NCBI RefSeq assembly: GCF_039536245.1
Contig: NZ_BAAAYN010000047.1
Location: forward strand, 16,105 to 80,104
Direction: 5' to 3'
Source of the DNA: Cryptosporangium minutisporangium
GTDB lineage: Bacteria; Actinomycetota; Actinomycetes; Mycobacteriales; Cryptosporangiaceae
DNA: 64,000 bases
Within the stretch, counting starts at the first letter, position 1, and the number at the start of each line of letters is the position of its first letter. A program made the translations under genes and the position numbers. The notes under the pieces were generated by a model, which was not told the DNA's origin, ran no database searches, and worked only from the letters and a program-made list of their open reading frames with translations. Shown piece after piece: positions 1 to 44,535 of this stretch.

Positions 1-420
1 GCGCGTCCGGAGCGCGGCGGGCGAGCCTTGGGCGTCGATGACCGCCGAGCGTCGCGCGGTGGCGTGGTGGGCGGCGAGCATCCGGGCCAGCGCACGCAGC
101 GGTCCGTCCCCGTCCTCCCCGGCCGCGAGCAGCGCCGAGAGGCGCCGGTCGGTCGGCATACGGCGCATCACCACCAGCCAGTCGCACGGCCGACCGTCCG
201 GCCCGTGCACCTCCGCGACACCGAGGTAGACGTCGCGCGCGAACTGGCGGTTGAGTTCGACTTCCCGGTGACAGGCGTGCCTCCGCGACTCGGGCGTGCG
301 GAAGTCGACGAACCCGAGGTCGAGCGGCTTCTTCAGCTTGTAGGCACGGTCGCCGGTGAAGAAGACGACGCCGGAGTGCGTCTCGGCGACGGCGGCCGGT
401 TGCTGCGGTATCTCAGCCAT
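1..420 (-). CDS. Aminoglycoside phosphotransferase/ATPase-like protein, Rv2004c family (partial)
   Basis: The N-terminal 140 codons are present; the C-terminus runs off the left window edge. The translation opens MAEIPQQPAAVAETHSGVVFF, followed by YKLKKPLDLGFVDF and a VELNRQFA segment. That is the start of the kinase-like fold of the two-domain proteins that pair an aminoglycoside-phosphotransferase fold with a P-loop domain, as in mycobacterial Rv2004c (a DosR-regulon member). The substrate of this family is unknown. The ATG at 418-420 has no clear Shine-Dalgarno; an in-frame GTG two codons upstream (424-426) is an alternative start. A perfect GGGAC-N4-GTCCC box lies 59 bp upstream. Family assignment is good; the second domain cannot be seen here. 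Confidence 0.75.
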   Translation of the reverse strand, partial: MAEIPQQPAAVAETHSGVVFFTGDRAYKLKKPLDLGFVDFRTPESRRHACHREVELNRQFARDVYLGVAEVHGPDGRPCDWLVVMRRMPTDRRLSALLAAGEDGDGPLRALARMLAAHHATARRSAVIDAQGSPAALRTR

Positions 421-478
421 GTTCACAGTCAACGGGCCACGAAGGCCGGCGGGGGACGGGCGGAGGCCACCCGATGCT

Positions 479-492
479 GGGACCTTCGTCCC
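479..492. promoter_or_regulatory. DosR-like box (GGGAC CTTC GTCCC)
   Basis: Perfect inverted repeat GGGAC/GTCCC with a 4-bp CTTC centre. It lies just 2 bp beyond the stop codon of the upstream P-type ATPase gene and 59 bp before the kinase-like gene that reads leftwards. It matches the core of the mycobacterial DosR consensus (GGGAC-N4-GTCCC). Binding is inferred. Confidence 0.75.
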
Positions 493-494
493 GG

Positions 495-3185
495 TCAGCC
501 GCGCGCCCGAACGCGACCGACCCAGCGGTACAGCTCGTCGGCGCCCCAGACGATCGGTGGGAACGTGCAGAGCAGCGCGAGTGTCCAGCCGTCCAGCGGG
601 GCCGTGCCGAACACGGATTGCAGCGGCGGCAGGTACACCAGCGCGGCGGTGAACACCACCTCGAACACGATCCCGATCAGCAGCAGCCGGTTGGTGAACA
701 GTCCGGCCGTGAACAGCGAGACCCGCTCGGTCCGGGATGCGAACGCGGTCCCGATCTGGCAGGCGACGATCGCCGCGAACGTCGCGGTGGTGGCCTCCAG
801 GTACGCGGAGTGCAGCGGGGAACCGGCTCCGGTCTCCGCCCCCGGCGTCCAGCCGGCGCGCCACAGCACCGAGAAGAACGCGAGGAGGGCCAGAGCCGCG
901 GACACCGGGCCGAGAACCGCCCAGGCACGGATCAGCATGCGCCGGGTGACGACGCCTTCCTTGCGGCGCCGCGGTGGGCGGTCCATCAGGCCCGGCTCGG
1001 CCGGTTCGCGGCCCAGCGCGAGCGCGGGCAGCGTCTCGGTGCCCAGGTCGATCGCGAGGATCTGCAGCACGGTCAGCGGCAGCGGAATCGCTCCCCCGGA
1101 CAGCGCGAACAGCAGGAAGGGAACGATCTCCGGCACCGCGTGGGCGAAGATGTAGAGGATGAACTTCCGGACGTTGTCGTATACCCGGCGTCCGGCCTCC
1201 ACCGCCCGGACGATCGTCGCGAAGTCGTCGTCGGTGAGCACCATGGTGGCGGCTTCCCTAGCGACGTCGGTGCCCGAGGCACCCATCGCGATGCCGATGT
1301 CGGCACGGCGTAGGGCCGGGGCGTCGTTGACGCCGTCACCGGTCATCGCGACCACCTCGCCGCGCCGGGACAGCGCATCGGCGATCCGGAGCTTCTCCTC
1401 CGGGGTGGCGCGCGCGAACACGACCTCCCCGTCGGCCTGCAACAGGTCGGCCAGCTCCTCGTCGCTCATCGCGGCGAGCACGTCTCCGGTGACCACCGCA
1501 GAATCGTCGTCCCCGATCCCGACGGAGCGAGCGATCGCCGCACCGGTCAGCGGGTTATCGCCGGTCACCACGTGGACGCGGATGCCCGCACCGTGGCAGG
1601 TCTCGACGGCGGGCGCCACCGACGGGCGGGCCGGGTCGAGCAGGCCAACCAGGCCGCAGAGGATCAGGTCACGCTCGACCGCGTCGCGATCGGCCGGCAC
1701 CGTCGCGCCCAGCGGACGGCGCGCCACCGCGAGTACCCGCAGCCCGCGCCCGGCCAGCTGCGCGACGACGCTCTCCGCGGTGGCCCGCTCGGCCGCGGTG
1801 AGCCGGCAGAGCGGCAGCACCGACTCCGGCGCCCCCTTGCAGGAGACCTCCCGGCGCTCGGTGCCGCGGTCGATGGTCGACATACGTCGCAGCCGCGGAT
1901 CGAAGCGGTGGACGGCGATCCGCAGCGCCCCGCGCGCGGGAACGTGCGTGCGCGCGAACCGCAGCAGTGCCAGCTCGGTCGGGTCGCCGGTGCTGTGGTC
2001 GCCGTCGAGGGTGGCCTCCGTACACCGGCCCAGCACCTCGGCCAGGGCGGCGACGTGCCCATCGCCGGGTGGGATCTCCGACGCCGTGCGGATGTCCACG
2101 TGGGGTGTCCACAGCTGGTGTACCTGCATCCGGTTCGCGGTCAGCGTCCCGGTCTTGTCCGTGCAGATCACCGTCGTCGAGCCGAGCGTCTCCACCGCGG
2201 AGAGCCGTTTCACCACGGCGCCCGCCCGCGCGAGGGAGCGGACCCCGACCGCCAGGGCCAGCGTGATCGTCGGCAGCAGCCCTTCGGGCACGTTCGCCAC
2301 CAGTAGGCCGACCGCGAACACCAGCGCCGCGGAGAGCGACAGACCGGCGAGCAGCCCGAGTGGCAGGAACGCGACGCCCACGCCGATCGCGACGGCTGCG
2401 ATCAACCATGCGACCTTGCGGACTTGCTGTTCGAGTGGGCTGTCCTTGCGCTCGACGCCTTGGGAGAGCGTCGCGATCCGGCCGATCTCGGTGGCGGATC
2501 CGGTCGCGAACACCACGGCCCGGCCGCCGCCGCCCGTGCACTGGGTGCCGCGGAACACCGCGTCCGGCACGTGCAGGAGTTGCGCGTCAGGATCGGACTC
2601 CCCAGCGGTACGAACCACCGGCACCGACTCGCCGGTCAACGCGCTCATGTCGACCTCTACCGCACCGTCCAGCAGCCGGGCGTCGGCGGGGATCGTAGCC
2701 CCTTCGTCGACCAGGATGACGTCGCCGGGCACGATCTCCACCGCGTCGACCTCGACCCGGTGACCGTCCCGCAAGACGTGAGCCTGCGGCGGCAGGAACG
2801 CCGCGAGCGCCTCCACCGACCGTTCCGCCTGCTGCTCCTGCCAGAACGCCAGTGCCGCGTTGAGCAGGACGACGGCGACGATGGCGACCGCGAGCGGCGG
2901 AGTACCGGAGAGCCAAGCCAGCACCGCCGCGCCCCACAGCAGCAGCGCCAGCGGGTGGATCAGCTGCCGGACCAATGCGCTGGCCCATCCAGCGCCGCGC
3001 TTCTCCGGCAGCGCGTTGGGACCGTACTGGGCGCGGCGCCGCACCGCTTCCTCGACGCTCAAACCACTCGGCCGTGCTCGCAGATCGCGCAGCAGGGCCT
3101 GCATGCCTTCGCGCGGATCCCGGACGGGGGCCGACACACCAGGTGCGGCGATCGCCGGAGTGGTGTGGTCCTCGCTGATCTTCAC
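495..3185 (-). CDS. ctpF: Cation-transporting P-type ATPase, CtpF/PMCA-like
   Basis: P2-type (calcium-pump-like) ATPase of about 896 residues, close to mycobacterial CtpF (905), a DosR-regulon gene. Counting from the longest frame (start at 3200) it shows TGES at 189-192, the M4 motif PEGL at 305-308, the phosphorylation site DKTGTLT at 348-354, KGAPES at 455-460 and TGDGVND at 620-626. Hydrophobic segments sit where M1-M10 are expected. I prefer the GTG at 3183-3185 because GGAG lies 7 bases upstream; the longer GTG start at 3200 has no such support. A conserved N-terminal cation-ATPase domain precedes M1. It probably exports Ca2+ or another divalent cation; the metal is not certain. A DosR-like box lies 57 bp upstream. 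Confidence 0.93.
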
Positions 3186-3241
3186 GGTGGATCTCCTCAC
3201 CTGTCCTCTCCACCGTCAGCCACCGGCGCAGGTATCCGCGA

Positions 3242-3255
3242 GGGACGAAGGTCCT
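3242..3255. promoter_or_regulatory. DosR-like box (GGGAC GAAG GTCCT)
   Basis: Near-perfect palindrome, 57 bp upstream of the ctpF start. It abuts the stop codon of the PEP-synthase-like gene, so ctpF has its own promoter rather than depending only on read-through. Confidence 0.7.
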
Positions 3256-4607
3256 CAAGCGCCTGGTTCGGCTACCGCGTCGACGGGTCCGTCGAACACC
3301 GCGCCCAGGCGCCCGTCCACCGTCACCAGTTGCCCGTCGCGAAGGGTGGTGGTGGCGGTACGCGTCCCGACGATGCCGGGAATGCGCAGCTCCCGGCTGA
3401 CGACCGCGGCATGGCAGGTCAGGCCGCCACCGTCGGTGACCAGGGCGGCGGCCTTCCGCAGGATCGCCATCCAGTCCGGCGACGTCATCGCGGCGACCAG
3501 GATCTCGCCGGCCGCGAACCGGTCGGCGTCGACGGGCGACCGGAGGATCCGCACCACACCGGAGATCCGGCCGGGTGCCGATGCCAGTCCGGAGAGCAGC
3601 CGCCGGCCGTGCGGGCCGTCGCTCGGCGCAGCGGTGGCCGCGACGGGCTCGTGCAGCGTGGTGAGGGGCCGGGTCTGGACGAGGTAGGTGCATCCGTTCT
3701 CGATCGCCCACTCCATGTCCTGAGCCGATCCGTAGTGCTGTTCGACGCGGATCGCCAGCCGGGCCAGGTCGACGGCCTCGGCGTCGCTGAGCACGCGGCG
3801 GGCCGCCTCCGCCGGAGTCAGTTCGACCCGCTGGTCGGCGCCGTCGGGTCCGGTGACGATCTCGTGACTCTGGTAGCCGATCGTCGCCTGCAACAGCGTC
3901 GGACCGGTCTTGCGCACGACGTAGGTGTCCGGAATCACCTGGCCGCTGACGACGACCTCGCCGAGCCCGAGGGCGCCCTCGATCACCACGTGCGCGGTGT
4001 CGTTCGAGGCCGGGTCCGCGGAGAACATCACGCCGGAGCGCTCGGAGCGGACCATGCGCTGCACGACCACCGCGATCGCCGGCTCCTCGGTCAGACCCTG
4101 CGCCGCCCGGTAGGCGATGACCCGCGGGCGGTAGAGGGAGGCCCAGCACTCCCGCAGCTTGCTGAGCAGTTGCTCGTCGCCGCGGACGTTGGTGTAGGTC
4201 TCGTTCATCCCGGCGAACGAGATACCGGCCGGGTCCTCGGCGGTCATCGACGAGCGGACCGCGACCGAGACGTCGTCGCCGAGACGGTGGTACGCGGCGA
4301 GGATCGCCTGGTTCATCCCCGCCGGCAGCGGCGCCGCCGCGATCTTCTGACCCAGCTCGTCGGCGAGCGCGGCGAGCGCGGACGGGTCCTCGGTCCGCGT
4401 CGCGACGACCCGCGCGGCGAGCTCCTCGCGGAGTCCCGCCGCGTCCATCGCCTGCAGGTAGGCCGTGGCGCTGAGGACGAAGCCGGGCGGGACCGGTAGC
4501 CCGGCGCGGGTCAGCTCACCGAGGTTCGCGCCCTTTCCGCCGGCGATCGCGGTATCCGCTGCCGACAGGTCGTCGAACCACAGCACGGTGGCGCTGGTGT
4601 CGAGCAT
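3255..4607 (-). CDS. Truncated PEP synthase-like protein (ATP-grasp plus phosphohistidine domains only)
   Basis: A 450-residue protein built from the N-terminal pyruvate/PEP-binding ATP-grasp domain (about 5-315, with GGKGANLGELTRAGLPVPPGF at 23-43 and MTAEDPAGISFAGMNETYTN near 121-140) and the mobile phosphohistidine domain (about 345-445). The catalytic histidine is present at 399 in GGGLTCHAAVVSREL. Full PEP synthases have about 790 residues with a C-terminal TIM barrel that binds pyruvate/PEP; that barrel is absent. The stop is clean and no barrel-coding sequence follows, so this is a designed two-domain form rather than a fresh truncation. It could phosphorylate its own histidine from ATP and pass the phosphate to another molecule or to a separate barrel. 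Start: ATG with GAGGTGG upstream. The divergent promoter region carries two DosR-like boxes. Confidence 0.8.
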   Translation of the reverse strand: MLDTSATVLWFDDLSAADTAIAGGKGANLGELTRAGLPVPPGFVLSATAYLQAMDAAGLREELAARVVATRTEDPSALAALADELGQKIAAAPLPAGMNQAILAAYHRLGDDVSVAVRSSMTAEDPAGISFAGMNETYTNVRGDEQLLSKLRECWASLYRPRVIAYRAAQGLTEEPAIAVVVQRMVRSERSGVMFSADPASNDTAHVVIEGALGLGEVVVSGQVIPDTYVVRKTGPTLLQATIGYQSHEIVTGPDGADQRVELTPAEAARRVLSDAEAVDLARLAIRVEQHYGSAQDMEWAIENGCTYLVQTRPLTTLHEPVAATAAPSDGPHGRRLLSGLASAPGRISGVVRILRSPVDADRFAAGEILVAAMTSPDWMAILRKAAALVTDGGGLTCHAAVVSRELRIPGIVGTRTATTTLRDGQLVTVDGRLGAVFDGPVDAVAEPGA

Positions 4608-4694
4608 GGTGTCCACCTCTTCCGTTCTCCGGGCTCCTCCCCACCGTCCGCCCGACGGCGGTCCCGAGGTCAGAGGCGCTGGACGGCGCCGCCC

Positions 4695-4708
4695 GGGACC
4701 AAGGTCCC
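4695..4708. promoter_or_regulatory. DosR-like box (GGGAC CAAG GTCCC), divergent promoter
   Basis: Perfect palindrome extended to CCGGGACC/GGTCCCGG at 4693-4710. It is 88 bp from the PEP-synthase-like start (minus strand) and 125 bp from the DoxX-like start (plus strand), so it could serve both. Confidence 0.75.
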
Positions 4709-4738
4709 GGACGGTTCCGGGCGGCCCTCCGAGCACGC

Positions 4739-4752
4739 GGGACCAACGCCTC
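4739..4752. promoter_or_regulatory. DosR-like box, variant half-site (GGGAC CAAC GCCTC)
   Basis: One half is canonical GGGAC; the other is GCCTC followed by TGACC (4753-4757). The same GCCTCTG or GGCTCTG arm recurs at other boxes in this window. A mirrored partial copy (GGTCAGAGGCG) lies near 4668-4681. It is 81 bp upstream of the DoxX-like gene. Confidence 0.6.
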
Positions 4753-4832
4753 TGACCCCCCGAACGCCCCGGAGAGAGCCTGGGGGTGTCGCAAAGAACC
4801 CCCCTTCGACCTCATGGACGAGGTGACGTCAG

Positions 4833-5420
4833 ATGGCCACCACCCACGGCCCGGAACGGACCCGCAAGGCCCCCCGCCTCCACATGCCGACGGCATTCCA
4901 CGGAGTCAACGGCACGGCCGAACCGGCCGCACCGCTCGGCACCGCCACCCGCATCGCGCTGGCCGCCACCCGGATCGTCGTCGGTTGGACGTTCCTCTGG
5001 GCGTTCCTCGACAAGGTCTTCGGCCTCGGGTACGCCACCCCGGACGGCAAGGGCTGGATCGACGGCGGCTCGCCCACGAAGGGCTTCCTGTCCGGCGCCG
5101 AAGGCCCCTTCGAGGGCATCTACCACGACCTGGCCGGCACTCCGTTCGCCAACTGGGCGTTCATGCTCGGCCTGCTCGGCATCGGTGTCGCGATGATCCT
5201 CGGCATCGGCATGCGCATCGCCGGCGTCAGCGGCGCCCTGCTCTACGTTCTCATGTGGACCGTCGCCCTGCCCCCGGCGAACAACCCGATCACCGACGAC
5301 CACATCCTCGGCGCGCTCATCGTCACCGTCCTGGCCCTGATCGGCGCCGGGAACTACTTCGGCCTCGGCAACTGGTGGCGGCAGACCGCCCTGGTCAAGA
5401 GGCTTCCCTGGCTCACCTGA
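4833..5420 (+). CDS. DoxX/DoxD-family membrane protein
   Basis: 195 residues with a hydrophilic N-terminus (about 1-45) followed by four predicted membrane segments. The long extracytoplasmic loop after the first segment reads WAFLDKVFGLGYATP, then GWIDGGSP. This resembles DoxX-family proteins and the DoxD-like subunit of thiosulfate:quinone oxidoreductase. Members interact with the quinone pool or redox-defence complexes, but the substrate here is unknown. The ATG has GAGGTG 7 bases upstream. It is divergent from the PEP-synthase-like gene and precedes an alcohol dehydrogenase; the two DosR-like boxes between the divergent genes suggest hypoxic or redox induction. Confidence 0.75.
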   Translation: MATTHGPERTRKAPRLHMPTAFHGVNGTAEPAAPLGTATRIALAATRIVVGWTFLWAFLDKVFGLGYATPDGKGWIDGGSPTKGFLSGAEGPFEGIYHDLAGTPFANWAFMLGLLGIGVAMILGIGMRIAGVSGALLYVLMWTVALPPANNPITDDHILGALIVTVLALIGAGNYFGLGNWWRQTALVKRLPWLT

Positions 5421-34442: not shown

Positions 34443-34456
34443 GGGACTTCAGGCTC
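34443..34456. promoter_or_regulatory. DosR-like box, variant (GGGAC TTCA GGCTC)
   Basis: Second site in the pfl/CBS-BON divergent region, followed by TG as in the GCCTCTG variants; 108 bp upstream of CBS-BON protein 2. Confidence 0.55.
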
Positions 34457-36102: not shown

Positions 36103-36804
36103 ATGACACACCGCACCGTGAAGGACGTCATGACGACCGACGTCCGGAGCGTCTACCTCGGGTCGCCGGCCAAACTGATCGCCGAGCAGCTGGACTGCGC
36201 CGGGATCAGCGCGGTGCCGGTGCTCAACGACGAGGCCGCTGTGGTCGGCGTCGTGTCCGAGACCGACCTGCTGCACAAGATCACCTACCAGGACGAGGGC
36301 GACGACTGGCCGCGTCTCCTGCGGCGACACCGCACGGACCGCGCCAAGGCCGCGGGGCTGGTCGCGCGGGACCTGATGACCGCTCCAGCGATCACGATCA
36401 CGCCGGACGCCACAGTCGTCGAGGCGGCCCAGCTGATGGAGCGCCGCGGTGTCAAGCGGATGCCGGTCGTGAACGACATCGGCAAGCTCGTCGGCATCGT
36501 CAGCCGCGGCGACCTGATCCGGCTGTTCGTCCGCACCGACGCAGCGATCCGTGACGAGGTGCAGGCCGACGTCCTCGACCGCGTGCTGCTCTCCCCCGCC
36601 GGGGTGACCGCCGAGGTCACCGACGGGGTCGTGACGCTCGGCGGAACGCTCCCGCGCAGGAGCGACACCGAAATCGCCGTCGAGTTCACCCGCCGGATCG
36701 ACGGGGTGCTCGACGTGGTGAGTGCCCTCGCCTACGTCGACGACGACACCAGCTACCGCGCGATGCGCCAGCAGGTCAGTTACCCGTCCGGCCCGTTCCT
36801 CTGA
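36103..36804 (+). CDS. CBS-CBS-BON domain protein 3
   Basis: 233 residues with the same order as its two paralogues: CBS 1 (VKDVMTTDVRSVYLGSPAKLIAEQL), CBS 2 (RDLMTAPAITITPDATVVEAAQLMERRGVKRMPVV) and BON (VTDGVVTLGGTLPRRSDTEIAVEFTRRIDGVLDVVSAL). The DLLHKITYQDEGDDWPRLLRRHRTDR linker is nearly the same as in protein 1, so these two are the closest pair. ATG preceded by GAAGGGAG. It leads a flavodoxin gene 29 bp downstream. Confidence 0.88.
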   Translation: MTHRTVKDVMTTDVRSVYLGSPAKLIAEQLDCAGISAVPVLNDEAAVVGVVSETDLLHKITYQDEGDDWPRLLRRHRTDRAKAAGLVARDLMTAPAITITPDATVVEAAQLMERRGVKRMPVVNDIGKLVGIVSRGDLIRLFVRTDAAIRDEVQADVLDRVLLSPAGVTAEVTDGVVTLGGTLPRRSDTEIAVEFTRRIDGVLDVVSALAYVDDDTSYRAMRQQVSYPSGPFL

Positions 36805-38819: not shown

Positions 38820-39026
38820 CGGACCGGCCGGATCCGGGAAGACCTCCCTCGGCGGGTCTTCGGCTGGTTCGTGCTGACGGTCGGCACGTTCGTCCTCGTT
38901 CAGCAGCTCCCAGCCGGTCCACGGGGCTCCGCGTGGCTGCGGATCGTCATCGCCGGAGCCGTAGCCGCCGCATCGGTGGTGATCCTGGCCGCCTGGCGGC
39001 ACCCTCGGGCCAAGATGGTGTCATGA
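38820..39026 (+). pseudogene. 3' relic of a TauE/SafE-family permease
   Basis: The plus-strand frame ending at TGA 39024-39026 reads LPRRVFGWFVLTVGTFVLVQQLP and a second hydrophobic helix, which resembles the C-terminal two helices of TauE/SafE sulfite-exporter proteins (usually about 250 residues). An ATG at 38,775 could open the frame but only through the BON relic in antisense. The stop overlaps the start of the MshC-like gene (ATGA), so the two were once an operon. Confidence 0.55.
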
Positions 39027-40189
39027 GTAGCCAGTCTGTCCCTCCGGTCGGCGTCGAGCCCGGCGGCGGATCCGAACTCCGGTCGCGCACCGGTGAGTTC
39101 GTCCTCGGCGGGAAGGGCCTACCGCTGCTGAGCCCGACCCGGATCTACACCTGCGGCATCACGCCTTATGACGTCACGCACCTCGGGCACGCGGCCACCT
39201 TCGTCTGGGCCGATGTGCTGTCCGCGGTGGTGACGCTCGCCGGCGCGAAGCCCGTGGCGGCCCGGAACGTCACCGACGTCGACGACGTGCTCACGGTCGC
39301 CGCCGCGACACGCGGCCGCGACTACGACGAGTTCGCCCTCGTCCAGGAGTTCCTGTTCGACCGGGATATGACGGCCCTGCGGGTGACTCCGCCCGCCCAC
39401 GCGCCGCGCGCGCGGCACCACGTGCCCGACGTCCAGCGGATGGCGGTCGCATTGCTGGCCAACGGCCGGGCCTACGAACGGGCCGGACACGTGTTCTTCC
39501 GCGGCTCCGACGTGCCAGCCCGGTGTGGCATCGACACTGCGACGGCTCGGACCCTCGTGGCGGAGCAGGGCGACGATCCGGACGACCCACTGCGGAACGA
39601 CCCGTTCGACGTGCCGGTCTGGCGGCCGTCGCGGGAGGAGGAGCCCGGCTGGCCGAGCCCGTGGGGCCGAGGCAGGCCGGGCTGGCACGCGGAGTGCGCG
39701 GCGATGGCGCTGGCGGTGCACGGCCCCGTGGTCGACGTGGTGGTCGGAGGTGCCGACCTCGTCTTCCCGCACCACGCCTACCAGGCCGCCATGGCCGAGG
39801 CCGCGACCGGCGCCGGACCGTTCGCTCGAGGGTCGCTCCACGTCGGCAGCGTCCACCGGGACGGGCAAAAGATGGCCAAGTCCACCGGCAACCTCACGCT
39901 GGTGGCTGATCTCCTGGCCGACCACTCAGCCGCCGCGGTCCGCCTTCTCCTGCTCGACCGGCGGTACGACGCCGACTGGGAGTACCACGAATCCGGGCTG
40001 GCCACGGCCGGACACCGCCTCGAGCGGCTCTACGCGGCGGCCGGCCGCCCGTCCCGATCCGCCTCGGCTCGCGCGAAGGTGGGCACGGCGCTCCTCACAG
40101 ACCTGGACGTGCCGGCCGCGCTCGACGTCGCCGAAGAGTCGGGCGGCGAGGCCGCCCGATGGCTGCTCGCCACGCTCATGCTGGGCTGA
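39023..40189 (+). CDS. MshC-like (mycothiol ligase)/cysteinyl-tRNA synthetase paralogue
   Basis: 388 residues, class I synthetase fold. Cys44 in YTCGITPYD, HLGH at 53-56, WHAEC, FPHH and KMAKS (for KMSKS) are visible. The GITPYD sequence is typical of MshC, which joins cysteine to glucosaminyl-inositol in mycothiol synthesis, rather than CysRS (CGPTVYD); length also fits MshC (about 410) and not CysRS (about 470). Odd points: HHAY where MshC usually has HHEF, KMAKS instead of KMSKS, and no mycothiol genes nearby, so it may be a divergent paralogue. ATG 39023 overlaps the TauE relic stop. Confidence 0.75.
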   Translation: MSSQSVPPVGVEPGGGSELRSRTGEFVLGGKGLPLLSPTRIYTCGITPYDVTHLGHAATFVWADVLSAVVTLAGAKPVAARNVTDVDDVLTVAAATRGRDYDEFALVQEFLFDRDMTALRVTPPAHAPRARHHVPDVQRMAVALLANGRAYERAGHVFFRGSDVPARCGIDTATARTLVAEQGDDPDDPLRNDPFDVPVWRPSREEEPGWPSPWGRGRPGWHAECAAMALAVHGPVVDVVVGGADLVFPHHAYQAAMAEAATGAGPFARGSLHVGSVHRDGQKMAKSTGNLTLVADLLADHSAAAVRLLLLDRRYDADWEYHESGLATAGHRLERLYAAAGRPSRSASARAKVGTALLTDLDVPAALDVAEESGGEAARWLLATLMLG

Positions 40190-40530: not shown

Positions 40531-40783
40531 CTCCCGCATCCCGAACGGCCCTTACTCGCCTCTGACCGGTGTGCGTCGCCGGCCCCGAAACGCCTCGGGA
40601 ACAGTGATGAACCTTCCTTCGCCCAGCGCGTCCGCCGGTCAGGCGATTGTTCCCCCGGTCCTGAGGCACGTGCCCCGGCCTCGGCCCATGCTGCCGCGGT
40701 GAGCAGGACCGGATCAACGTCCCTGTCGCCGCAGCCCCAACCGTTGGGAGCATGACGGGAACAACCTACGAGGAGGGCACCCC

Positions 40784-41698
40784 ATGTCCAGTTCGGAGCA
40801 TCGGGACACCGTGGTCGTCGGAACGGACGGATCGCCGCACGCGGATATCGCGCTCCAGTGGGCGCTGCGATACGCCGAAGCCCGTCAGCTCGCCGTTCGG
40901 ATGGTCACGGCAACCGAGTGGCCGGCCGCTGCGAACTCGGCTACCCGGTACGCGATCAACGACACGATCACCGCGGCTCACGACGGCGCCCGTCGCATGC
41001 TGGACGCAGCGGTCGCGCGTAGCCGTACGAGTCATCCCAGCCTGGAGATCACCGGCGAAGTGTCGTCCGAAGCCGCGGTACCGGCGCTCCTGGCCGCCTC
41101 CGAGAACAGTCACCTACTCGTCGTCGGTCGGCGAGGACTGAACCCCGTCATGACCGCGTTGCTCGGATCGGTCTCGACCTCACTGGTCAACCACGCGCAC
41201 TGCCCGGTGGCGGTCATCCACGAGGATCGGCAGACGGGCGACGACCGCCCGGTCGTCGCGGGCCTCGACGGATCGAAACGCGACCTGGCGACGCTGCGAG
41301 TGGCCTTCGACGAGGCCGCCCGGCGGGGCGCGCCGCTGGTGGCAGCGCACGCCTGGAGTGACGTCCCGCTGGCCGAGCTCGTTATTCTGGGCTCCCGCGC
41401 CGTCCATTCGTACGAGGAGCTGCGGGCCGAAGCCTCGACCTTGGTCACGGACCAGCTGGCGGCCTGGCGCGCGCGATACCCGGACGTCACGGTCCAAACC
41501 TCGATCCACAACGACCAGCCCGCGGCGACGCTCATCGAACTAGGTCAGGGCGCCGGACTGCTCGTTGTCGGGTCCCACGGCCGCGGTGGGTTCGCCGGAA
41601 TGGTGCTTGGCTCGGTCGCACGTCGGGTCGTTCACCACGCGAACTGTCCCGTGATCGTGGTCCGCGGGGAGCCTCGACCGGACACGGACGAACGCTGA
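40784..41698 (+). CDS. Universal stress protein, two UspA domains
   Basis: 304 residues. Domain 1 opens TVVVGTDGSPHADIALQWALRYAEARQL and closes GRRGLNPVMTALLGSVSTSLVNHAHCPVAVI; domain 2 opens VVAGLDGSKRDLATLRVAFDEAA and closes GSHGRGGFAGMVLGSVARRVVHHANCPVIVV. The second domain keeps the ATP-binding G-2x-G-9x-GS loop. ATG has GAGGAGGG. No clear DosR-like box upstream, unlike most stress genes here. Confidence 0.92.
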   Translation: MSSSEHRDTVVVGTDGSPHADIALQWALRYAEARQLAVRMVTATEWPAAANSATRYAINDTITAAHDGARRMLDAAVARSRTSHPSLEITGEVSSEAAVPALLAASENSHLLVVGRRGLNPVMTALLGSVSTSLVNHAHCPVAVIHEDRQTGDDRPVVAGLDGSKRDLATLRVAFDEAARRGAPLVAAHAWSDVPLAELVILGSRAVHSYEELRAEASTLVTDQLAAWRARYPDVTVQTSIHNDQPAATLIELGQGAGLLVVGSHGRGGFAGMVLGSVARRVVHHANCPVIVVRGEPRPDTDER

Positions 41699-41730
41699 GT
41701 CTCCCTTCGCCGACCCGTGCTACGAAACAC

Positions 41731-41925
41731 CGCATCATTCACATCGGCGTGCTCACCGGCGGCTCGCGGTCGTCGGGGTGCCGTTCGACCGGGTGCTGGC
41801 CACCCGATTCGGTCTGCACGCGATCGAGGCGGCGCAGGAGCGGGACTGGGGTGGCGCTGCGTGGCACCGACATCGTCCGCGTCCCGATCGAGGACGCGAC
41901 CCGAGAGCTGAAGACAGTGCCCTGA
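41731..41925 (+). pseudogene. Relic of ATP-dependent 6-phosphofructokinase
   Basis: The sequence joins the first codons of a PfkA gene (HIGVLTGG near 41,740-41,763) to its last part: FDRVLATRFGLHAIEAAQERDWG (41,785-41,850), then, after a frame change, VALRGTDIVRVPIEDATRELKTVP and TGA (41,851-41,925). About four-fifths of the normal 340-residue protein, including the active site, is missing, and there are at least two frame breaks. It is a deletion derivative, not functional. Confidence 0.7.
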
Positions 41926-42015
41926 GCCGCTACGCAGAACCAGAAGTCATCTTCGGCTGATGGTCGGGGTCCGGGTCTCGAGCAACTCCGCGCGCCTGGC
42001 GGCGCTCCCAAGCCA

Positions 42016-42050
42016 ACTGCTGCGCGGCGGACGTTCGGCCGCGCAGCAGT
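42016..42050 (-). terminator. Hairpin terminator of the 66-residue membrane gene
   Basis: 13-bp perfect stem ACTGCTGCGCGGC/GCCGCGCAGCAGT with a 9-base loop, 37 bp past the stop of the small gene. Confidence 0.65.
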
Positions 42051-42086
42051 CCACACGGGCTTCAGTTCGGCCCGGATGCCCAGGGA

Positions 42087-42287
42087 TCAATGAGTAATAG
42101 GCGTGCCGCGGTGCGCGATGCCCCTCGGAAGGCGCGGACGGTGCGCGGCCGGACGGACAGCCGGCTGCCGGTGGCGGATCCAGGAGACGGTTTCGCCTAC
42201 CCCAACGCTGAGCAGCAGCAGGACCGTGAGTCCGACAACCACTCCGAGGTAGATCGTGATCGGCACCAAGACGCTGGAATCGAACAT
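42087..42287 (-). CDS. 66-residue membrane protein
   Basis: One strong hydrophobic helix (SSVLVPITIYLGVVVGLTVLLLLSVGVGETVSW), then a basic Arg/Pro/His-rich cytoplasmic tail. No family recognised. Support for a real gene: a GGTGAG before the ATG, a strong hairpin downstream and a DosR-like box 71 bp upstream. The frame is short, so translation is likely but not certain. Confidence 0.5.
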   Translation of the reverse strand: MFDSSVLVPITIYLGVVVGLTVLLLLSVGVGETVSWIRHRQPAVRPAAHRPRLPRGIAHRGTPITH

Positions 42288-42357
42288 GACATCTCACCGT
42301 CCTCCATGGATCTTCGTTCGCATCTCCAGGCTATGGCGGCTGGTTACCGGCGAGTAG

Positions 42358-42371
42358 GGTCCAAAGACCTG
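42358..42371. promoter_or_regulatory. DosR-like box (GGGTC CAAA GACCT)
   Basis: Symmetrical variant with T/A at position 4 in both half-sites, 71 bp upstream of the 66-residue membrane gene. Confidence 0.45.
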
Positions 42372-42535
42372 CTGTGCGCCGGCCAGCGAAGGGCAGCCGG
42401 GCCTTCCGGCCCTGAGTACGCGCTCCGTCTTTCGGCTTGGCAGTCCGCCTCGGCAGCGTCGGCTATACGGAACGAGCCTGGCAGGACGACGCCGTCTTCG
42501 AGATCGCCTAGAACGTCCTGACGCATGGAGCCGCC

Positions 42536-42567
42536 CCGGCGGGTCGGAGGGACATCCGACCCGCCGG
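42536..42567 (-). terminator. Terminator after the hibernation factor gene
   Basis: 12-bp perfect stem CCGGCGGGTCGG/CCGACCCGCCGG with an 8-base loop, about 20 bp past the stop. Confidence 0.75.
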
Positions 42568-42586
42568 AGCGGCGGTCTAGAGATAT

Positions 42587-43375
42587 TCAGTCGAGCGTGA
42601 CCAAGCCGAAGTGCCCGTCCCGCTGAACGTGCAGCACGGCACCCCGCCCAGTAGCCAGATCGGCGAAGAACACGTACGGCTGACCGGCGTACAGCAGACG
42701 CTCGGCGGCTGCCTCGACGGTCAGCTGCGGCGCGTCCTCGACCTCGATCGAGACCGCGGTCGCCGGCGGGGTGACGAGCGGACGGTGTCGCACCCGCGCG
42801 AGCCGGTACCCGCTCGGCCCACCCCGGAACACCACCGAGTCCTCCGCCGCCTCGACGTCGTGGAACAGGTGGAACTCGCGGTCGAGGGCCTCGAGATCGG
42901 CGATCGCCTCGTCCACTGTGCATGCCGTCGGGGCGTAGGTGCCGTGCGGGTGGATCTCCCGCTCGTCATCGGCCTCCCCGAGGAACGCCGGACGCCGGCC
43001 GTGCCCGTGCCGGGTGTGGTGGCGATCCAGCCGCTCGATCGCCGTACGCAGCGAGTGCTGCAGCGCATCAAGCCCCACCCGTGCCGACTCCGCAGTCGTC
43101 TGCACACGCACCAACCGCCCGTTGACGTTCACCAGCGCCGTGGAGACCACCGGCCGGGGCAATGCCGGATCCGCGAACCGCACCAGCCGCACCGACGCCC
43201 GCAAGATCGGGAACGGGCAGTGCCGGACCGCAGCGCGAACCTTGCGTCGGGCGTAGTCCGGAACGTCGGGCGCGAAATACCCTTCGGTGGTGACCTCCAC
43301 CGCCAGGTCCGCTGGTGGGATCTCCTGCGGTGCCGCGGGGTGACGGTCGAACGGGGCCATCTTCTGGACGCTCAT
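42587..43375 (-). CDS. hpf: Long-form ribosome hibernation-promoting factor (Rv0079-like)
   Basis: 262 residues. The N-terminal ribosome-binding domain is about 25-125 (VEVTTEGYFAPDVPDYARRKVRAAV; IERLDRHHTRHG). Two C-terminal dimerisation-like segments follow: VFRGGPSGYRLARVRHRPLVTPP and ERLLYAGQPYVFFADLATGRGAVLHVQRDGHFGLV. It resembles the DosR-regulated Rv0079 proteins, which pair or silence idle ribosomes. It may not be the housekeeping HPF. ATG 43375 has AAGGAGG, the best ribosome site in the region. A perfect DosR-like box lies 51 bp upstream. Confidence 0.88.
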   Translation of the reverse strand: MSVQKMAPFDRHPAAPQEIPPADLAVEVTTEGYFAPDVPDYARRKVRAAVRHCPFPILRASVRLVRFADPALPRPVVSTALVNVNGRLVRVQTTAESARVGLDALQHSLRTAIERLDRHHTRHGHGRRPAFLGEADDEREIHPHGTYAPTACTVDEAIADLEALDREFHLFHDVEAAEDSVVFRGGPSGYRLARVRHRPLVTPPATAVSIEVEDAPQLTVEAAAERLLYAGQPYVFFADLATGRGAVLHVQRDGHFGLVTLD

Positions 43376-43425
43376 CGCTGACCTCCTTATGGCCCCAGTC
43401 TCATCCGCCCCACTGCCTCCCGACA

Positions 43426-43439
43426 GGGACGAAAGTCCC
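43426..43439. promoter_or_regulatory. DosR-like box (GGGAC GAAA GTCCC)
   Basis: Perfect half-sites with a GAAA centre, 51 bp upstream of hpf; one of the three perfect copies in the window. Confidence 0.8.
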
Positions 43440-43506
43440 GGTCGGATATGACGTCTGCCCAGGACGCCGGAGGTTGGCGTGCTGGTGCGCGGCGGGCTCG
43501 ACGATC

Positions 43507-44535
43507 TCACGCGGGAGTCGCTCCGGGCGGTGTCTCGTCCACCTCGACGACCTCGTCGTGCGACCGCCGGTGCGCCCCCGGCACGCCGAGGTCGGCGGCG
43601 GCTACGCCGACCCGCAGCACTACGTAAGGATGGCCCTGCCAGTACAGCAGCCGCCGCACCGTCAACCGGGTACTCGCCACCTCGACCAGGTCGGTCATCG
43701 GCGAGGTGGCGAGCCCCAGTTCGGCGGCGCTCAGAAGCACTGCCGAGAGCGCCTGTCCGGCCCGCAACCACGCCCGCCGACCGTCCTGATCACCCCACAG
43801 GATCAGGTACCGGGCGCCGCTGTCATCACCCGGCCCGGCGGCCAGCTGTCCCTCCGCGTCCTCCGCGAACGGCCGCAACGGCACCGGACGCGGGGTCCCC
43901 GGCACCGTCACGTCGACCGGAAGGCCATCGGACGCACCCGGCGGCCGGTGAGTCCACTGCTCCAGCTCCGCCCGCTCCGCGGGACCGGCCAGTTCGAAGG
44001 TCGCGGCGAACGCGGCAGCGGCGGCCAACACCGGCACTTGATCGGTCTCGACGACGTGCACCTGCACACCGTGGACGGACGCCGCCCGTGCCAGCGCGTC
44101 GAGTTGGTCCTCGGTCACCAGGTCCGGGCCGAACGGCCGCCGATCGGTGTGCCGCCGCAGCGTCGTCTGGTATCGCCGGTAGTCCTCCGCGACAGCCGGT
44201 CGGGACTCGGCCGGGTAAATCGTCGCCAGCAAGTCCGGGTCGCTGGCGTCCGGCAGCAGCTCGACCTGAGCGAGGTATCCCTCGACGCGCAATGCGATGA
44301 CCGCGTACTCCAGCGCCGCGCCGCAACTCGTGGTCAGCATCCGGCCCTCCGGATCGAGGGCAGCAAGCCGGCGTTGCGGATCGGCCCGCAGGTCCAGTGA
44401 CCCCTCGTCGACGACCCAGCGCCAGGGCTGGGTGTTGAGCACCGAGGGCGCCCGTAGCGCGGCGGTAGCTGCTTCGTCGAGGGCCGCACTGAGCGGTCGC
44501 TCGGGCCGAGGCGGCGGAGCGGGCGAGGGAGTCAT
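43507..44535 (-). CDS. Acg-family nitroreductase-like protein 2
   Basis: 342 residues, paralogue of the 6,631 protein: AALRAPSVLNTQPWRWVV near 27-44, DPQRRLAALDPEGRML, TLRRHTDRRPFGP and SPMTDLVEVASTR. The C-terminal tail is longer and acidic. Its ATG overlaps the stop of the upstream PPOX gene (ATGA), so the pair is a translationally coupled operon, a gene pairing I consider meaningful: flavin-binding proteins made together. Function of the family in dormancy is still unclear. Confidence 0.87.
   Translation of the reverse strand: MTPSPAPPPRPERPLSAALDEAATAALRAPSVLNTQPWRWVVDEGSLDLRADPQRRLAALDPEGRMLTTSCGAALEYAVIALRVEGYLAQVELLPDASDPDLLATIYPAESRPAVAEDYRRYQTTLRRHTDRRPFGPDLVTEDQLDALARAASVHGVQVHVVETDQVPVLAAAAAFAATFELAGPAERAELEQWTHRPPGASDGLPVDVTVPGTPRPVPLRPFAEDAEGQLAAGPGDDSGARYLILWGDQDGRRAWLRAGQALSAVLLSAAELGLATSPMTDLVEVASTRLTVRRLLYWQGHPYVVLRVGVAAADLGVPGAHRRSHDEVVEVDETPPGATPA

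Follow-up and report, generated by a model that had tools for sequence, protein, structure and literature searches.

A probable decayed pfkA duplicate in a DosR-like island of Cryptosporangium minutisporangium, next to a gene for a universal stress protein

Ordinary bacterial pseudogenes form by deletions after duplication. For phosphofructokinase, two kinds of enzyme have to be kept apart: PFK isozyme 2 (PfkB) has a ribokinase-type fold, belongs to another superfamily and is not homologous to PfkA. In Mycobacterium tuberculosis, Rv2029c (pfkB) is described in one account as resembling Escherichia coli PFK isozyme 2 (PMC4410610), and ctpF, pfkB and hspX are named in another as genes of the mycobacterial DosR regulon (PMC4082495).

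Like M. tuberculosis pfkB (Rv2029c), the remnant described here derives from a phosphofructokinase gene and is found within a set of dormancy genes, close to one for a stress protein. However, the mycobacterial gene is an induced member of its regulon, whereas the gene in C. minutisporangium is of the PfkA type, is broken and lacks a good DosR-like box. The original prediction for this locus drew a parallel with pfkB; since PfkA and PfkB are enzymes of different kinds, that link is reduced to an analogy of setting. The window (the whole 64-kb stretch of DNA analysed) also carries genes for PPDK, pyruvate formate-lyase (PFL) and its activating enzyme, GAPDH, a P-type ATPase, Hsp20, CBS and nitroreductase proteins, as well as a wax ester/triacylglycerol synthase-like gene that scored just under its cut-off. 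This gene content resembles that of the mycobacterial DosR regulon.

Immediately upstream of the remnant lies an intact universal stress protein (USP) gene (40784-41698, + strand), which encodes a two-domain protein (Pfam PF00582, E 4.8e-53, two stretches). Downstream is a ribosome hibernation-type gene with an S30AE C-terminal domain (42587-43771, − strand; Pfam PF16321, E 2.7e-15), whose true start is probably near 43.38 kb. A possible gene for a 66-aa small membrane protein (42087-42287, − strand) lies between the remnant and the hibernation-factor gene. The stress island also contains a CysRS/MshC-like ligase gene (38999-40189); its best match is TIGR03447 MshC (E 1.1e-84), though it falls under the cut-offs of both MshC (284.7 vs 485.1 bits) and CysS (238.1 vs 340).

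We used this genome's own intact pfkA locus (L001, on contig C7) as a blastn query against the 64-kb window and identified a pfkA pseudogene at 41702-41960 (+ strand), which retains, besides 35 nt of leader, the opening 8-9 codons, a small islet from the middle and the final ~63 codons. The 5′ piece (41702-41762) aligns to L001 1458-1520 (89%, E 6e-15), and the 3′ piece (41780-41960), which runs through the original stop codon, to L001 2331-2520 (89%, E 4e-68). These matches are far beyond chance and bear out the original prediction of a pfkA gutted internally with both ends kept, though the limits it gave (41731-41925) proved too narrow in both directions. The leader (41702-41736, corresponding to L001 1458-1494 within the 5′ match) begins 3 nt past the last base of the USP gene and is two 1-nt gaps shorter than the 37-nt leader of the intact gene. 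Its AAAGGA has become AAACA, disrupting the ribosome-binding purines, and in the adjoining coding end (HIGVLTGG; 41737-41762, L001 1495-1520) the start codon ATG has become ATT.

Between the two ends lies an exact 17-nt match to L001 1847-1863 (41767-41783, VVGVP codons), in correct gene order and longer than any match (maximum 15) obtained with 5000 Markov surrogates of pfkA. Survival of this islet means that at least two large deletions occurred, so that the internal loss originally proposed stands but not as a single event. The first deletion (~326 bp, between L001 1520 and 1847) left four unassigned bases (41763-41766), while the second (471 bp, between L001 1860 and 2331) is flanked on both sides by GCCG, the last four nucleotides of the islet being also the first of the 3′ piece. 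The 3′ piece has in addition lost 8 nt near 41850 and 1 nt in a C run near 41920. The 1-nt deletion creates a TGA at 41923-41925, and homology extends past it up to the original pfkA stop (41958-41960). Two frame breaks fall within 41731-41925, as predicted, and a third (the loss in the C run) just before 41923. The remnant also lacks the catalytic TIDND stretch present in the intact protein, and a whole-genome profile search found no PF00365 match at the remnant, matching only genes on contigs C7 and C50. With its pieces in order and its start, frame and core ruined, the feature is a pfkA pseudogene. It resembles ordinary bacterial pseudogenes in being a redundant copy with deletions and a lost start codon, and nothing sets it apart from them.

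The same profile search, which covered the whole genome (9.23 Mb, 152 contigs), identified two intact PF00365 genes: pfkA on C7 (E 1.2e-106) and a more distant gene on C50 (E 1.5e-68). The C7 gene (G000:C7:27628-28653, equivalent to L001 1495-2520) encodes a protein of 341 aa that clears the TIGR02483 and NF002872 cut-offs, and the C50 product clears that of NF005301. The PfkB family (PF00294) had 16 matches in the genome, though this family spans many sugar kinases. Compared with the C7 copy, an actinobacterial-type PfkA (TIGR02483 PFK_mixed/PF00365), the remnant shares the leader and is 89% identical at both ends but lacks the start codon, the frame and some 79% of the coding sequence, of whose 1026 bases 220 (about 21%) are left. 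The original prediction had held that a glycolytic gene was lost and had proposed looking for other pfk genes; since that search found both the intact C7 pfkA and the C50 gene, the phosphofructokinase step has not been lost. Very probably, the remnant is a lineage-specific duplicate of pfkA that decayed while the intact gene remained, a reading that builds on the observed homology and damage, the intact paralog and the closest match of the remnant to that paralog.

Our data support a DosR-like character for the surrounding island, as originally predicted along with its PPDK and PFL genes, on the strength of gene content and box-like dyads, though not of every scan. With the core of the mycobacterial DosR box as the scan pattern (≤3 mismatches), the window contained 11 sites, compared with 3.8 on average after shuffling (highest count in 30 shuffles, 11). 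Island stretches of two relatives contained 7 against 0.9 (G003, stretch L068; largest 5) and 5 against 0.9 (G002, stretch L070; largest 4), and two control stretches from this genome (L072 and L082) contained 1 each against 0.9 and 0.8. A derived pattern, GGGACYTTCGKCCC (≤2 mismatches), gave 17 sites in the window against 4.5, an excess that is partly circular because the pattern was taken from window sites. More independent checks come from the L068 and L070 scans and from the scan with the DosR core. The derived pattern yielded 6 sites against 1.4 in L068 (reached by 0 of 200 shuffles), 5 against 1.4 in L070 (reached by 6 of 200) and 1 against 1.3 in control L072. Genome-wide (≤1 mismatch), it matched 33 sites compared with 23 for a reversed control pattern; 12 of the 33 are on this 238,594-base contig, three of these 12 being repeated across a doubtful join. 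Neither of two looser dyad patterns showed enrichment in the window (36 vs 45.8 expected and 48 vs 80.3 expected).

DosR-box-like palindromes of the derived form occur at window positions 3242, 4695, 20658, 31066, 34399, 43426 and 53269. Those at 3242, 20658, 31066 and 34399 lie shortly before the P-type ATPase, synthase-like, GAPDH and PFL genes, respectively, and that at 43426 lies shortly before the hibernation-factor gene, assuming a later start than the longest frame. Around the remnant and its USP gene, the derived pattern (≤2 mismatches) had no site between 34412 and 42399, and the mycobacterial core (≤3 mismatches) had none between 34456 and 43426. The looser scans, which were not above chance, gave two-mismatch matches at 34443, 37105, 41354 and 41842 and, with another spacing, matches at 36368, 36943, 37304, 38126 and 40776, this final one spanning the start of the USP gene. 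No DosR-like box at the remnant or its USP gene was comparable in quality to the other island boxes, so that membership of the copy in such a regulon is unsupported. A failed parallel to the DosR regulon's own phosphofructokinase, in which the copy, a PfkA-type equivalent of mycobacterial pfkB placed behind a stress-protein gene, would briefly have been recruited to the island and then abandoned, seems quite unlikely.

The original prediction also implied that a gene belonging to the island had been lost, and we consider it quite improbable that the remnant is an ancestral island pfkA of the genus now disappearing from this genome. Its position beside a USP gene in a DosR-like island would suit such a history, as would the operon that M. 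tuberculosis pfkB shares with Rv2028c according to one source (PMC4410610). However, each of the five genomes in our family sample (this one, three others of its genus and one of another genus) carries a single PfkA in the high-scoring class (357.8-363 bits), six further PfkA-profile matches across the five scoring 219.2-235.4 bits. A DNA search with the USP gene plus the remnant as query (61 genomes, this one and 60 relatives; seven candidates scored in most genomes) revealed no second short pfkA among the scored candidates in the three genus-mates. Likewise, a search with the remnant alone, in which 40 of 142-334 candidate stretches were scored per genome, found no remnant in the four other family genomes (G001-G004). 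Among these scored candidates, both pieces matched in G001, G002 and G003 only ~0.81 kb apart, as in an intact gene, and G004 had a single match, to the 3′ piece; G003 had two weak lone extra matches elsewhere, one at 77% across some 70 bases and the other at 89% across 35. An intact pfkA at this locus, for which the original prediction had suggested looking in relatives, was found in none of the four among the candidates scored.

Sequence comparison likewise argues against ancestral loss, since the remnant is closest to this genome's own housekeeping copy. In an alignment of 255 bases, the remnant shares 93.7% identity with this genome's own pfkA, 89.8% with that of G002, 84.7% with that of G003 and 72.2% with that of G004 (82.7% over 254 bases for G001), and this genome's pfkA is itself 92.9% identical to that of G002. 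Six sites pair the remnant with its own pfkA against G001-G003, while three conflicting sites, which fit the ancestral history better, group that pfkA with G001 (two sites) or G002 (one site). Taken together, these sequences favour a duplication after the split from G002, within a sampling of three other species of the genus. The USP locus is not traceable in the G002 and G003 stretches, where the nearest USP matches reach 50-53%, which leaves a little room for an older presence of pfkA here. Relative-rate comparisons placed 11 changes on the remnant and 3 on its own pfkA with G002 as the outgroup (binomial P 0.057), and 6 and 1, respectively, with a unanimous outgroup (P 0.125); they do no more than suggest faster change in the dead copy.

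Two wider arrangements were considered and rejected. A duplicated segment larger than pfkA and its leader found no support when 40700-43500 was compared with 20 kb around the C7 pfkA, as nothing beyond the leader, ends and islet aligned better than E 0.047. Adjacency of USP and pfkA as a common arrangement was rejected as well: the window's USP had no tblastn match at E 1e-3 in 34 pfkA loci (L001 and L030-L062), whose flanks reach about 0.6-1.5 kb past the gene or, in two cases, less. A contig scan with the USP protein yielded 22 relatives at 32-42% identity. Our literature search on pfkA gene duplication combined with pseudogenes in actinobacteria found nothing.

Retention of the remnant as a functional element, such as a short peptide or an RNA, appears highly improbable. 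A stop-free frame of 62 codons does run from ATT 41737 to TGA 41925, its length arising because the frame breaks compensate one another. Most of the middle of this frame, however, is not in the PfkA frame; it starts with ATT behind disrupted ribosome-binding purines, such stop-free lengths are probably common in G+C-rich DNA, and the remnant is kept in no relative searched (G001-G004, at the candidate coverage given above). An error of assembly, for instance a chimeric fusion to the C7 pfkA, is scarcely credible: the contig does have a doubtful join, where one N at C47:16104 stands between perfect 5.2-kb repeats, but a misjoin would create neither the substitutions along both pieces nor the several small deletions relative to the C7 gene, and the window has no ambiguous bases. 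The perfect repeat itself, which covers the P-type ATPase region (window 1-5222 and G000:C47:10883-16103) and flanks the N immediately before the window, most likely represents two overlapping contig ends joined unmerged rather than a true duplication.

For the preferred reading, decay of a redundant duplicate, the following course can be proposed. A second copy of the housekeeping pfkA, comprising leader and coding sequence, would have arisen in this lineage, most likely after the split from the nearest relative compared (G002), and would have come to lie directly behind the USP gene in the DosR-like island; both the step and its date are deduced from the comparisons above. There, the copy may have needed either read-through from the USP gene or a since-lost promoter for its transcription. 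Being redundant, it would then have decayed, losing its ribosome-binding purines and start codon and eroding through large deletions, at least two in number (~326 bp and 471 bp), together with the 8-nt and 1-nt deletions, perhaps by slippage at short repeats or by end joining. The remnant would yield no enzyme and is presumably not expressed, PfkA function coming from the C7 gene.

The remnant is an ordinary pseudogene and reflects ordinary genome decay. It carries little significance, a redundant duplicate having decayed while the intact pfkA stayed. As a lesson, a remnant lying within an island should not be equated with a lost step, and the rest of the genome needs to be searched for a paralog. 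The more interesting feature of the window is the surrounding DosR-like island with its pyruvate formate-lyase, and the placement of that enzyme under a putative DosR-like box is worth separate attention.
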